From the NCBI RefSeq assembly GCF_005047595.1, contig NZ_SUPL01000001.1, forward strand, positions 186,001 through 250,000: a stretch of DNA of 64,000 bases, read 5' to 3'. Under the pieces are notes generated by a model. That model had not been told where the DNA came from and made no database searches. It worked only from the letters and a program-made list of their open reading frames with translations. The number at the start of each line of letters is the position of its first letter. Within the stretch, counting starts at the first letter, position 1. Shown here one piece after another: positions 15,881 through 19,908 of this stretch. The DNA is from Pontimicrobium aquaticum. Its GTDB lineage: Bacteria; Bacteroidota; Bacteroidia; Flavobacteriales; Flavobacteriaceae. The translations under genes were made by a program, and so were the position numbers.

Positions 15881-16858
15881 TTACAAATCCAAAAGATATG
15901 CAAAAATTAAAGGTGCAACTATCGTTGCATCACTTTCAATAATAAATTTTGGTGTATCAATATCTAATTTTCCCCAAGTAATTTTCTCGTTTGGCACAGC
16001 TCCAGAATACGAACCATAGCTAGTAGTTGAATCACTTATTTGGCAAAAATAACTCCAGAATGGTGTGTCTGTACGTTCCATATCTTGATATAACATTGGC
16101 ACGACACAAATAGGGAAATCACCTGCAATTCCGCCTCCTATTTGAAAAAAACCAATGCCTTTTTTAGAATTATCTGTGTACCAATTGGCTAAAAAAGTCA
16201 TGTATTCAATTCCAGATTTCATAGTGCTAGCTTTGAGTTCGCCTTTAAGCACATAGCTTGCAAAAATATTCCCCATAGTACTGTCTTCCCAACCTGGACA
16301 TACAATGGATAAGTTTTTCTCTGCAGCAGCATACATCCAAGAATCTTTTAAGTCGATTTCATAATATTGCTCAAGCACTCCAGACAACAACATTTTGTAC
16401 ATATATTCGTGTGGTAAATAGCGTTCGCCATTAGCTTCAGCATCTTTCCATATTTTATAAATATGTTCTTGTAATCTTCGGAAAGCTTCTTCTTCTGGAA
16501 TACACGTATCGGTTACTCTATTTAATCCTTTTTCCAATAATTCCCACTCTTCTTGAGGTGTTAAATCGCGATAGTTAGGTACGCGTTTATAATGCGAATG
16601 TGCTACCAAATTCATGATGTCTTCCTCTAGGTTAGCTCCTGTACATGAAATAATGTGTACTTTGTCTTGACGAATCATTTCAGCAAAACTTTTACCAAGT
16701 TCTGCAGTACTCATAGCACCTGCTAATGATACTAGCATTTTTGAACCAGACTCTAATTGTGCCTCGTAACCTTTTGCTGCATCAACTAAAGCAGCAGCGT
16801 TAAAGTGCAAATAATGTTTTTCTATAAATTGCGAAATTGGGCCTTTAGTAGTCGTCAT
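15881..16858 (-). CDS. Deoxyhypusine-synthase-like protein (probable homospermidine-type polyamine synthase)
   Basis: The ATG at 16858 (MTTTKGPISQF) is chosen; an upstream TTG at 16867 is less likely. The product has 325 residues. NAD-binding-type features are LVSLAGAMSTAELG, ISCTGANLEED and FQIGGGIAGDFP. The C-terminal TWGKLDIDTPKFIIESDAT contains a WGK lysine (about 297) matching the catalytic Lys of deoxyhypusine synthase. Bacteria lack eIF5A, so the acceptor is likely putrescine or another amine; homospermidine is common in flavobacteria. It starts inside the 3' end of the agmatinase gene, with a 14-bp overlap. Confidence 0.85.
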   Translation of the reverse strand: MTTTKGPISQFIEKHYLHFNAAALVDAAKGYEAQLESGSKMLVSLAGAMSTAELGKSFAEMIRQDKVHIISCTGANLEEDIMNLVAHSHYKRVPNYRDLTPQEEWELLEKGLNRVTDTCIPEEEAFRRLQEHIYKIWKDAEANGERYLPHEYMYKMLLSGVLEQYYEIDLKDSWMYAAAEKNLSIVCPGWEDSTMGNIFASYVLKGELKASTMKSGIEYMTFLANWYTDNSKKGIGFFQIGGGIAGDFPICVVPMLYQDMERTDTPFWSYFCQISDSTTSYGSYSGAVPNEKITWGKLDIDTPKFIIESDATIVAPLIFAYLLDL

Positions 16859-17786
16859 CTTCAACAAATTTTAGTGTGTTATTTTTATTTACGTAAGTAC
16901 TTTCAAATGAATTATCATAATCATCATCAGCATCTTCATTTTGGAACTTATAACTTAACATTTTATAATATAGTTTCGCCGCCAGAAAATCAGATGATTT
17001 TTCTTTTGCATTAGGACAAAGCTCTACTATATCAAAACCAACTACATTTTTTTCTTCAAACACTTGTTTTAAGAACTCAAGAGTTTCATACCATAACAAA
17101 CCTCCTGGTTCTGGTGTTCCTGTACTTGGTAAAATTGATGGATCAAACGCATCTAAATCAATGGTGATAAATACATTATCTGTCATTTGGTCAATAGCAG
17201 AGTCCATCCAAGTATCGTCTGTTACCATGTCATGAGCAAAATAGGTTTTTTCCTCATCCATAACTGTTTTTTCAATAGCATCCATAGAACGAATTCCCAC
17301 TTGAATTAAGTTAGTAGTTTGGCTTGCTTCATATACAGCACAAGCGTGATTGCAGGTAGAACCTTCATAGCTTTCACGTAAATCGGCATGTGCATCAAGT
17401 TGTAATACAGTTAAATCTGGAAACATTTCGTTAAAAGCTCTAATAGTACCAATAGAAACAGAGTGCTCGCCGCCAAAAATGGTCACAAATTTGTTCTTTT
17501 TAATATACTTCTTTGTGGTTTGGTGTACTGCATCAACCATAGCTTCTGGCGAGCTATTTTCAGTTACTGCATCAGCAAGATATATACCTTGTTTATACAC
17601 TTCGGTATCTGTTTCAATGTCGTAAAGCTCCATGTTTTCAGACGCATTTAAAAATGCTTCAGGACCTTTATCGGCTCCTTTTTGCCATGTGCTTGTACCA
17701 TCGTAAGGCACAGGAATTAATACAATTTTTGCTTGCTCTAATTTTGCAAGTTCTGCCGGAATTCCAGCATAAGTTTTAGTTTTCAT
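16845..17786 (-). CDS. speB: Agmatinase
   Basis: This is a 313-residue ureohydrolase that converts agmatine to putrescine and urea. Manganese ligands are visible in FGGEHSVSIG near residue 105, LDAHADLRESYEGS near 130 and TIDLDAFDPSILPSTGTPEP near 213. The C-terminal 40 residues are an acidic, Asn-rich extension with EDADDDYDNS that is outside the core fold. It lies 4 nt after speA and overlaps the deoxyhypusine-synthase-like gene, so the three form one pathway unit: arginine, agmatine, putrescine, then a larger polyamine. Confidence 0.93.
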   Translation of the reverse strand: MKTKTYAGIPAELAKLEQAKIVLIPVPYDGTSTWQKGADKGPEAFLNASENMELYDIETDTEVYKQGIYLADAVTENSSPEAMVDAVHQTTKKYIKKNKFVTIFGGEHSVSIGTIRAFNEMFPDLTVLQLDAHADLRESYEGSTCNHACAVYEASQTTNLIQVGIRSMDAIEKTVMDEEKTYFAHDMVTDDTWMDSAIDQMTDNVFITIDLDAFDPSILPSTGTPEPGGLLWYETLEFLKQVFEEKNVVGFDIVELCPNAKEKSSDFLAAKLYYKMLSYKFQNEDADDDYDNSFESTYVNKNNTLKFVEDDDY

Positions 17787-17790
17787 TTTT

Positions 17791-19251
17791 TTATTTATCA
17801 GCTAACACTATGTTAGCATTTTTGTTTATTGTTTGTGTTGTGTTAATATCAGGTTTTGGATCGTAACCCAAAATTTTAAGTAAGTCTTCGCTTTTTTGTT
17901 GCTCACAAAAAAGCTCAGTCGTTATATTTCCTTCAGCATCTTTGTTAATTAAAACATGCTTTGGTGTTGGAATTAAGCAGTGTTGCAACCCTCCAAAACC
18001 TCCAATGGTTTCTTGATAAGCTCCTGTATTAAAAAAGCCTATATACAATGGTTTTTCTTTATTATACTTTGGCAAATAAATAGCATTCATATGTTGCTCA
18101 CTATTATAATAATCGTCGCTATCGCAGGTTAAACCACCAAGTAACACACGCTCGTAACTATCATTCCAACGGTTTATAGGCAACATAATAAAGCGCTTAT
18201 TAATAGCCCAAGTATCAGGAAGTGTTGTGATAAACGACGAGTTAATCATGTTCCATTTTTCACGGTCGTTTTGTTGCTTTTGGTATAGCACTTCGTAAAT
18301 CGCGCCACCACTTTCACCTACTGTAAAACTTCCAAACTCTGTAAAAATATTTGGCACTTCAACACCTTCTTCTTCACAAGTAATATTGATTTGATTTACA
18401 ATTTCATCTACAAGATATTCGTAATCAAAATCGAATGCTAATGAGTTTTTAATTGGAAATCCTCCTCCAATATTTAAGCTATCTAAACTTGGACAAATCT
18501 TTTTTAAGCTCGTATAAACCTTTAAACATTTTAATAATTCGTTCCAATAGTATGCATTATCTCGAATTCCTGTATTAATGAAAAAGTGAAGCATTTTAAG
18601 TTCAACTTTTTCATTATTTTGAATTTGATTTTTGTAAAAAGGTACGATGTTTTTGTAGCCAATTCCTAAGCGAGACGTATAGAATTCAAATTTTGGTTCT
18701 TCTTCAGATGCTATTCGTATTCCTATATTGAAGTTGCCATTGATTTCTTGTGATAACAAATCGATTTCCTCATAATTATCAATGATTGGAATACAGTTTT
18801 TATGTCCTTCATTAATAAGTCTTGCAATATTAGTAACATATTGCGCGCGCTTAAAACCGTTGCTAATAATATAGGTATTATTGTCAATTTTACCTTCACG
18901 CTTTAGATTTTCAACGATATCAATATCAAAAGCCGAAGAGGTTTCAATATGGATATCATTTTTTAACGCTTCATGCAACACATGCTTAAAATGCGAACTT
19001 TTAGTACAATAGCAATAGTTGTATTTACCTTTATAGTCATACTTTTCAATAGCAGCAGTAAACCATTGTTTTGCTCGTTGAATATTATTTGATATTTGTG
19101 GTAAATACGTGAATTTTAAAGGTGCTCCATACTGTTCAACCAATTGCATTAGGTTAACATTATGAAAGCGTAGTTTGTGTTCCGCAAGTTTAAATTCATC
19201 TTGTGGAAAATCGAATGTTTGATTGATTAGATCAATATATTTAGTATTCAT
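17791..19251 (-). CDS. speA: Arginine decarboxylase (fold III, PLP-dependent)
   Basis: This is a 486-residue decarboxylase making agmatine. PLP lysine is Lys84 in YCYCTKSSHFKHVL. The barrel pieces include HIETSSAFDIDIV, LHFFINTGIRDN, LNIGGGFP, FGSFTVGESGG and the active-site Cys of LLGGLTCDSDDYY. It is shorter than the E. coli enzyme and is the form typical of Bacteroidota. The ATG at 19251 follows a roughly 270-nt leader with a good promoter, hairpins and a 50-codon ORF, so expression is probably controlled at the leader. Confidence 0.92.
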   Translation of the reverse strand: MNTKYIDLINQTFDFPQDEFKLAEHKLRFHNVNLMQLVEQYGAPLKFTYLPQISNNIQRAKQWFTAAIEKYDYKGKYNYCYCTKSSHFKHVLHEALKNDIHIETSSAFDIDIVENLKREGKIDNNTYIISNGFKRAQYVTNIARLINEGHKNCIPIIDNYEEIDLLSQEINGNFNIGIRIASEEEPKFEFYTSRLGIGYKNIVPFYKNQIQNNEKVELKMLHFFINTGIRDNAYYWNELLKCLKVYTSLKKICPSLDSLNIGGGFPIKNSLAFDFDYEYLVDEIVNQINITCEEEGVEVPNIFTEFGSFTVGESGGAIYEVLYQKQQNDREKWNMINSSFITTLPDTWAINKRFIMLPINRWNDSYERVLLGGLTCDSDDYYNSEQHMNAIYLPKYNKEKPLYIGFFNTGAYQETIGGFGGLQHCLIPTPKHVLINKDAEGNITTELFCEQQKSEDLLKILGYDPKPDINTTQTINKNANIVLADK

Positions 19252-19520
19252 TATTAGTTTAAAAAACGTGATTAATTAAAAATTGAAATAAGAAACGCTA
19301 CGTTTCAAAAAAAACGGAAATAATAATGATGATATATCAAACCTGAAGTGGATTTTGTGTTGTTGGCACAAAACCATACATATGCTGACTAGCAGCGATT
19401 GGAGTAACGGAAGTTAGCTTTAAAATTCGGTCGCTTATCCTATAAGCTGCTTTTGAATATGACTTCCTAATTTTCAAAAGCCCGAACATAGAAACAGGTT
19501 TCAATTTGTTCAGCTAAATG
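19252..19520 (-). promoter_or_regulatory. Structured leader RNA of the speA operon
   Basis: Read on the minus strand, the leader carries several simple hairpins: GAAACCTGTTTC just before the small ORF, GCTTATAGGATAAGC (six perfect pairs), GCTGCTAGTCAGC, GGTTTTGTG facing CACAAAATCC, and GAAACGTAGCGTTTC about 45 nt before speA. A run of eight T lies just before the last hairpin. This density of local stems, together with an ORF of 50 codons, points to attenuation or translational control by arginine or polyamines. I cannot assign it to a named riboswitch class. Confidence 0.6.
19337..19489 (-). CDS. 50-residue ORF in the speA leader (possible leader peptide)
   Basis: The ORF starts with ATG at 19489 and ends with TGA at 19337-19339. 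The product begins MFGLLKIRKSYSKAAYRISD and ends MYGFVPTTQNPLQV. It is basic in the first 25 residues and uncharged near the end. The ATG is about 30 nt after the predicted transcription start, and the stop is 85 nt before speA. It is a good candidate for a regulatory leader peptide that senses arginine or a polyamine, or a small real protein. The alternative is chance within a structured RNA. Confidence 0.55.
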   Translation of the reverse strand: MFGLLKIRKSYSKAAYRISDRILKLTSVTPIAASQHMYGFVPTTQNPLQV

Positions 19521-19525
19521 CGTAG

Positions 19526-19553
19526 CAAATGTAATTTATTTTTTAATACGCAA
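19526..19553 (-). promoter_or_regulatory. Promoter of the speA operon
   Basis: On the minus strand TTG (19551-19553) is followed by a 17-nt spacer and TACATTTG (19526-19533). This matches the Bacteroidota -33/-7 promoter form well. The predicted start is near 19520, giving a leader of about 270 nt. Confidence 0.75.
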
Positions 19554-19596
19554 TACTTTTTTGTGATTTTTTTTGTTGCCTTTGAAAACCCTCTAC

Positions 19597-19629
19597 TAAA
19601 ATCTCCTTTTCAACAAAAAGGAGATTTTA
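19597..19629. repeat. Inverted repeat downstream of the cold-shock gene
   Basis: TAAAATCTCCTTTT (from 19597) pairs with AAAAGGAGATTTTA (to 19629) across a short loop. The stem is perfect over about 13 bp. It lies just beyond the terminator at 19635-19669 and could be a back-up terminator or RNA-stabilising stem for the cold-shock transcript. Confidence 0.6.
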
Positions 19630-19634
19630 AATTA

Positions 19635-19669
19635 TAAAAAAAGACCGTTTGAAAAAACGGTCTTTTTTT
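19635..19669 (-). terminator. Rho-independent terminator of the cold-shock gene
   Basis: AAGACCGTTT and AAACGGTCTT form a GC-containing stem flanked by seven A on one side and seven T on the other, so it can work in both directions. It lies 45 nt after the stop of the cold-shock gene on the minus strand. Confidence 0.85.
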
Positions 19670-19713
19670 ATACATAATGCATTTCTTTATAAGACAAACA
19701 TTATTTTTAGGGT

Positions 19714-19908
19714 TTAACTTATAACTTCAACGTTTATTGCGTTTAAACCTTTTCTACCTTGCTCAGTGTTATACTGAACTTTGTCATCTTCTCTAATTTC
19801 ATCTGTTAAACCAGAATTATGTACGAAAATATCTTCACCTGTTTCTGATGATTTAATAAATCCAAATCCCTTGATATTGTCAAAAAATTTTACTGTGCCT
19901 TCTTGCAT
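19714..19908 (-). CDS. Cold-shock protein, CspA family
   Basis: This is a 64-residue single cold-shock domain. RNP1 is KGFGFI and RNP2 is DIFVH. The sequence starts MQEGTVKFFDNIKGFGFIKS, the standard family start. It binds single-stranded RNA or DNA and acts as an RNA chaperone. It has its own promoter about 230 nt upstream and its own terminator, so it is monocistronic. The long untranslated leader is a feature shared with cold-inducible csp genes. Confidence 0.95.
   Translation of the reverse strand: MQEGTVKFFDNIKGFGFIKSSETGEDIFVHNSGLTDEIREDDKVQYNTEQGRKGLNAINVEVIS

Follow-up and report, generated by a model that had tools for sequence, protein, structure and literature searches.

The window analyzed here is a stretch of 64,000 nucleotides of DNA from Pontimicrobium aquaticum. 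On its minus strand, a short leader ORF is followed by a speA-like gene, a speB-like gene, and a deoxyhypusine-synthase-like (DHS-like) gene (Table 1). The SpeA-like product matches the NCBIfam model for biosynthetic arginine decarboxylase with E = 1.6e-51, a partial match that falls under the family cut-off, and its Pfam match is Orn_Arg_deC_N. A preliminary description of the locus had proposed a TTG-N17-TACATTTG promoter, and we find it on the minus strand, from 19553 to 19526. The leader ORF of the window begins within about 20 nt of this promoter. Among the relatives, 69% have a -7-like element (score of at least 5/6) on the 5' side of the ORF, versus 45% of mononucleotide shuffles, and its commonest spacing is 28–30 nt ahead of the start codon.

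Two other features of the region are recorded here. Between the speA promoter and the neighboring cold-shock-like gene (19714-19908, minus strand), there are two strong hairpins with U/A tracts (19594-19672), which are probably terminators. Also, a few codons into speA (19223-19243, minus strand) lies the palindrome AUUGAU-CUA-AUCAAU. Many relatives have a similar one, and it may be protein-driven.

Table 1. Features of the speA leader and operon, in window positions, listed from 5' to 3' on the minus strand.
Feature	Positions	Strand	Basis or remark
Promoter: TTG (19553-19551), 17-nt spacer, TACATTTG (19533-19526)	19526..19553	-	Read directly
Helix P0, 5' strand (UAGCU), upstream of the start codon	19512..19516	-	92.3% of cells paired
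Leader ORF, 55 codons, TTG start at 19504	19340..19504	-	NUG at the homologous position, 131 leaders
Helix P1, 5' strand (UUCGG)	19482..19486	-	98.0% paired; double changes at 3 pairs
Helix P2, 5' strand (GCUUUUGAA)	19473..19481	-	92.0% paired; all 9 pairs with double changes
Pseudoknot, 5' strand, in the P2 loop (GGAAGU)	19462..19467	-	98.7% paired
Helix P2, 3' strand (UUCAAAAGC)	19449..19457	-	Covariation
Helix P3, 5' strand (GCUUAU)	19442..19447	-	82.6% paired; all 6 pairs with double changes
Helix P3, 3' strand (AUAAGC)	19433..19438	-	Covariation
Helix P1, 3' strand (CCGAA)	19426..19430	-	Covariation
Helix P0, 3' strand (AGCUA)	19415..19419	-	Covariation
Pseudoknot, 3' strand, directly after P0 (ACUUCC)	19409..19414	-	Covariation
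C-terminal peptide TPIAASQHMYGFVPTTQNPLQV, proposed arrest domain	19340..19405	-	pN/pS in frame
Leader stop codon, UGA	19337..19339	-	UGA in 123/131 leaders
Anti-start arm UCAUUAUUA, 8-16 nt past the leader stop	19321..19329	-	9-bp pairing with 19256-19248
Inner hairpin GAAACG-UAG-CGUUUC then UUAUUU, weak, terminator-like	19292..19306	-	
speA start region UAAUAAUGA, to which the anti-start arm pairs	19248..19256	-	Pairing
speA-like arginine decarboxylase, 486 aa, gene under putative control	17791..19251	-	ATG at 19251
speB-like agmatinase, gene after speA	16845..17786	-	TIGR01230, over cut-off
Deoxyhypusine-synthase-like (homospermidine synthase-like) gene	15881..16867	-	Pfam DS, E = 2.7e-42

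The leader ORF had been reported at 19337-19489. Its end stands, with the stop at 19337 and 85 nt between the stop and the speA ATG at 19251. Its start, at the ATG at 19489, has to be moved: across 131 leaders, the homologous start codon corresponds to the TTG at 19504, so the ORF has 55 codons. At this position, the 131 leaders use TTG (86), ATG (34), or GTG (11), and none uses CTG. Their lengths are mostly 54–57 codons, and internal stops are absent.

With blastn, we found a match to the leader in 25 of 60 related genomes, mostly upstream of speA. A profile built from 19 leader peptides identified the leader in 166 of 349 genomes of Flavobacteriaceae (124 of 237 genera), and none of the profile matches listed has an internal stop. 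Genera that were named in a search with a single peptide include Gaetbulibacter, Tamlana, Winogradskyella, Algibacter, Psychroserpens, Bizionia, and Olleya, with others alike. A speA gene lies downstream of nearly all of the 131 leaders and in all 80 of the named loci. In a set of 70 family genomes that have no leader match, 44 lack a match to SpeA as well. Draws from the order, the class, and the phylum yielded matches in Flavobacteriaceae alone; in 247 genomes of the class and 198 of the phylum, the only matches to the leader's RNA model (described below) came from Flavobacteriaceae. No match was found on the plasmids searched, and the leader is absent from Rfam, Pfam, and NCBIfam.

Two loci carry unusual copies. 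On the minus strand of L138 (G207:C3), at 853-1011, there is a further leader-like copy (MSYMYDFGLLEIRKSNPITAF...), divergent from the speA leader, which stands upstream of an unrelated ORF of 100 amino acids. In L014 (G024:C7; 1357-1599, minus strand), a locus without a speA match, there is a relic of the leader: its first half is intact, and its C-terminus and stop have eroded into a frame of 80 codons. The next gene in L014 resembles the gene that follows the DHS-like gene of the window.

The preliminary description suggested that related genomes be compared for synonymous-substitution bias, as a sign of coding, or for compensatory pairs, as a sign of structured RNA. Both signals are present, the compensatory pairs in the first half of the leader and the synonymous bias in the second, and throughout the family, stems and peptide alike are conserved ahead of speA. 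In the first half (codons 2-33 of 130 leaders), pN/pS is 0.79 in frame versus 0.84 and 0.77 in the other frames. Because these values are the same in all three frames, the conservation of the first half is at the level of nucleotides, with no coding signal. The basic residues at the start of the peptide had been singled out as a feature, and they are indeed conserved, but this is explained by RNA structure and not by the peptide. The equal pN/pS values also rule out the first-half residues (FGLLKIRKSYSKA...) as an arrest domain.

Judging from comparative sequence analysis, what is conserved in the first half is an RNA fold: a three-way junction with an outer helix (P0) and a loop pseudoknot. 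We aligned 89 leaders with MAFFT. For a structure that was drawn by eye from these same sequences before counting, 92.5% of the cells in P0, P1, P2, P3, and the pseudoknot were paired, as compared to at most 52% if the structure was slid by one column. There were 172 cells with double changes versus 49 in shuffled alignments, and none of 500 shuffles, which take no account of phylogeny, reached the observed value for any measure. For example, 11 sequences have a double change from U-A to C-G in P0, and the first pair of the pseudoknot has 15 double changes, from G-C to A-U or U-A. RNAalifold recovered P1, P2, and P3 unaided. The fold encloses the start codon of the leader ORF. No covariance model in Rfam 15 matched 19337-19522, even at E values of up to 5. 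The minimum free energy of the window's leader by itself does not go beyond that of shuffled sequences (z = -0.89), so we left single-sequence stems out of the evidence. The five local stems that had been proposed are thus unremarkable as free-energy hairpins in this sequence; the relevant helices are those identified by covariation in the 89 relatives.

The second half behaves differently. In 90 leaders of the main classes, pN/pS over the last 18 codons is 0.36 in frame versus 1.63 and 1.66 out of frame. The main class ends in SQHxYGFVPTTQxQIQ(V/I) just before the stop codon, and other classes end in QYQIMI, FRI, or PIRI. As the preliminary description noted, the end of the window's peptide is uncharged. 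Of the 131 leaders, 126 end in I or V, 96 have Q or R as the penultimate residue, and 124 have I, F, or L in third-last place. The stop codon is conserved as well. It is UGA in all 80 of the named loci, and the speA genes of these loci end in TAA (65) or TAG (15) and never in TGA. UGA is seldom used in long frames of the same loci (7 of 208). Arrest of the ribosome at termination would leave constraint on the last residues and on the stop codon, as observed.

A leader with arginine codons (AGG, AGG, and CGA in the window) might instead work by codon-based attenuation, with the ribosome pausing at these codons for charged tRNA-Arg. In Salmonella orf34, two arginine codons mediate the control of speF by arginine (PMC6386406). 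But the arginine codons of the speA leader sit in the half that is conserved as RNA, and this position disfavors such a mechanism. Furthermore, the second half of main-class leaders has few arginine codons, and what it preserves is a set of varied residues and the stop, not a run of a single codon. We consider codon-based attenuation to be very unlikely.

The sequence past the stop codon links the leader to speA. Across 129 genomes, the 26 nt that directly follow the leader's stop codon are predicted to pair more strongly with the genome's own speA start (-7.67 kcal/mol) than with swapped ones (-5.64 kcal/mol; z = -11.9), in a permutation test that ignores phylogeny and in which relatedness should make the own-versus-swapped comparison conservative. 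For control segments, z was +1.3, +0.4, and +2.7. A further control, the end of the ORF against the speA start, was also below the swapped values (z = -5.2), but its pairing was only -3.6 kcal/mol. In a replicate with 55 new, closely related leaders, the effect was weaker (z = -2.7), and in about a third of genomes, the pairing is individually weak. In many genomes, the pairing takes in the speA start codon itself. The proposal of the preliminary description that the peptide could stall ribosomes is partly supported by these comparisons: a stalling leader peptide is in keeping with the conservation of the C-terminus, the nearly invariant UGA, and the post-stop pairing with the speA start.

The same results bear on another account of the ORF, that it encodes a small functional protein whose placement before speA is incidental. 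The frame is open and its second half is conserved at the protein level, as expected for a protein. On the other hand, the first half has no coding signal, the ORF is almost always directly upstream of speA, and the bases after its stop pair with the speA start. Also, in L014, where the operon is missing, the C-terminus has eroded. A small protein is extremely improbable.

The gap between the leader and speA might act on transcription. In this scenario, the stalled or translating ribosome would keep a terminator in the gap, either intrinsic or Rho-dependent, from acting, instead of freeing the speA start. A terminator-like hairpin with a U-rich stretch is found in 26% of the gaps, versus 5.8% of shuffles. 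The window has such a hairpin (GAAACG-UAG-CGUUUC-UUAUUU), and in the gaps of L120 and L127, a longer stem is followed by about U6. Control by Rho is known for orf34/speF (PMC6386406). Nevertheless, the hairpin is missing from 74% of the gaps, which rules out a universal intrinsic terminator ahead of speA, and the genome-specific pairing extends to the speA start region and often to the start codon. Overall, transcription attenuation seems unlikely.

We also inspected by eye about forty speA loci from the family that have no match to the profile. In 25 of these, there is a short ORF before speA whose product has an ending such as NIRV, LRI, or IQI, directly followed by the stop. A stricter pattern, [ILFMV][RQ][IV] and then a stop, is matched by 5 of the window's 873 frames; because the 25 loci were chosen by inspection, this contrast is indicative and not a formal test. 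In these 25 loci, which lack the RNA domain, the bases after the stop pair with the genome's own speA start (z = -5.3). Relatives without the RNA domain often terminate the leader with UAA or UAG, which implies that release factor 2 (RF2) is not strictly required. Because the C-terminal motif and the pairing persist without the RNA domain, both appear to form a wider core, and the pseudoknot domain appears to have been gained or lost relative to it. In genus g147, loci L235, L236, L238, L240, and L243 have a different leader peptide before speA, with 57-59 codons and an ending of ANIRV or SNIRV. The RNA model did not convincingly match any of the g147 leaders; only L235 gave a match, which was weak and partial.

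These relatives are informative about another alternative, that the leader is first of all a riboswitch. The pseudoknotted domain would bind a small molecule and gate the translation of the leader, and the peptide would merely relay this to speA. The three-way junction and pseudoknot are conserved, as are unpaired stretches near the start codon of the leader, and the fold encloses the site of initiation. But a pseudoknot does not prove that there is a ligand pocket. Also, the relatives without a detectable RNA domain retain the ORF, the C-terminal motif, and the post-stop pairing, which implies that the peptide half works without the RNA domain. We view a riboswitch of this kind as somewhat unlikely.

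The reading that we consider likely is that the leader encodes a cis-acting peptide that stalls at its stop codon, exposes the speA start, and so controls translation of the speA-speB-DHS-like operon. Comparison supports the ORF with its coding signal and biased stop codon, the fold of the RNA, and the pairing of the anti-start arm; from these, we infer that the ribosome stalls, that speA is switched on by the stall, and that arginine or a polyamine serves as the signal. In this model, a ribosome would translate the 55 codons of the leader, and the last ~20 residues, with their ending of hydrophobic-(Q/R)-(I/V), would slow or block release at the UGA. While waiting there, the ribosome would cover the anti-start arm just past the stop. 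Because the post-stop bases would otherwise pair with the speA start region, stalling would uncover the start codon, and speA would be translated. If release was fast, then the hairpin would close and speA would be off. The signal might be the substrate arginine, inducing the stall, or the product polyamine, relieving it; either would make sense. The three-way-junction pseudoknot probably controls the frequency of initiation at the leader, or else the timing of RNA polymerase and the ribosome. It is rather doubtful that the pseudoknot is a metabolite-binding aptamer around the start codon, within the coding sequence of the arrest peptide, which would make this a two-sensor leader. If so, one short ORF would read both an RNA signal and a nascent-peptide signal before polyamine synthesis starts. 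In any case, the leader offers a direct route to testing how Flavobacteriaceae might sense arginine or polyamines, and its C-terminal motif is new material for studying how peptide release can be inhibited at UGA.

It is in the gamma-proteobacteria that arrest leader peptides sensing polyamine precursors are best known; the stalling of SpeFL, for instance, is induced by ornithine. By analogy, Salmonella orf34/speF is the closest precedent for the speA leader: when orf34 is translated, a structure that masks the start site of speF is unfolded (PMC6386406). In both systems, a short ORF precedes the gene for a basic amino acid decarboxylase of polyamine synthesis (PMC6386406). SpeFL is described as arresting at its stop codon (PMC8429421), and the speA leader is proposed to do so. 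The two differ in that the speA leader has 55 codons instead of about 34, ends in UGA (an RF2 stop) instead of an RF1 stop, precedes an arginine decarboxylase, has a pseudoknotted RNA in its first half, and is from Bacteroidota; here, we compared the systems by their descriptions. By pairing with the speA start region, the post-stop bases of the speA leader recall the erm leaders. In ErmBL and ErmCL, a macrolide-induced stall inside the ORF changes the hairpins downstream and frees the start site that follows, whereas the stall that we propose is at the stop codon and ahead of a metabolic gene. Another relevant system is TnaC, the leader of the tryptophanase operon, which acts on Rho termination. 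TnaC stalls at a UGA and has a basic penultimate residue (R23), and the speA leader has Q or R at that position and a UGA stop. The penultimate arginine of TnaC, before Pro-UGA, interferes with RF2 (PMC8429421). In contrast to TnaC, which has another sequence and another signal, the pairing in the speA leader implicates the start codon of speA. Within Flavobacteriaceae, a study of Flavobacterium psychrophilum describes structured 5' elements that are family-specific and outside Rfam, some with clues of leader-peptide attenuation (PMC9723704); the elements named in its main text are those of pheA, hisG, ftsY, acsA, alaS, and rimP, and the speA leader is not among these. In the open-licence literature, we found no description of the present leader, nor of an arrest leader peptide for an arginine decarboxylase or for speA of Bacteroidota. 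Set beside these systems, the speA leader combines, within a single frame of 55 codons, a pseudoknot supported by covariation and a conserved C-terminus that resembles an arrest domain, and it is widespread in Flavobacteriaceae.
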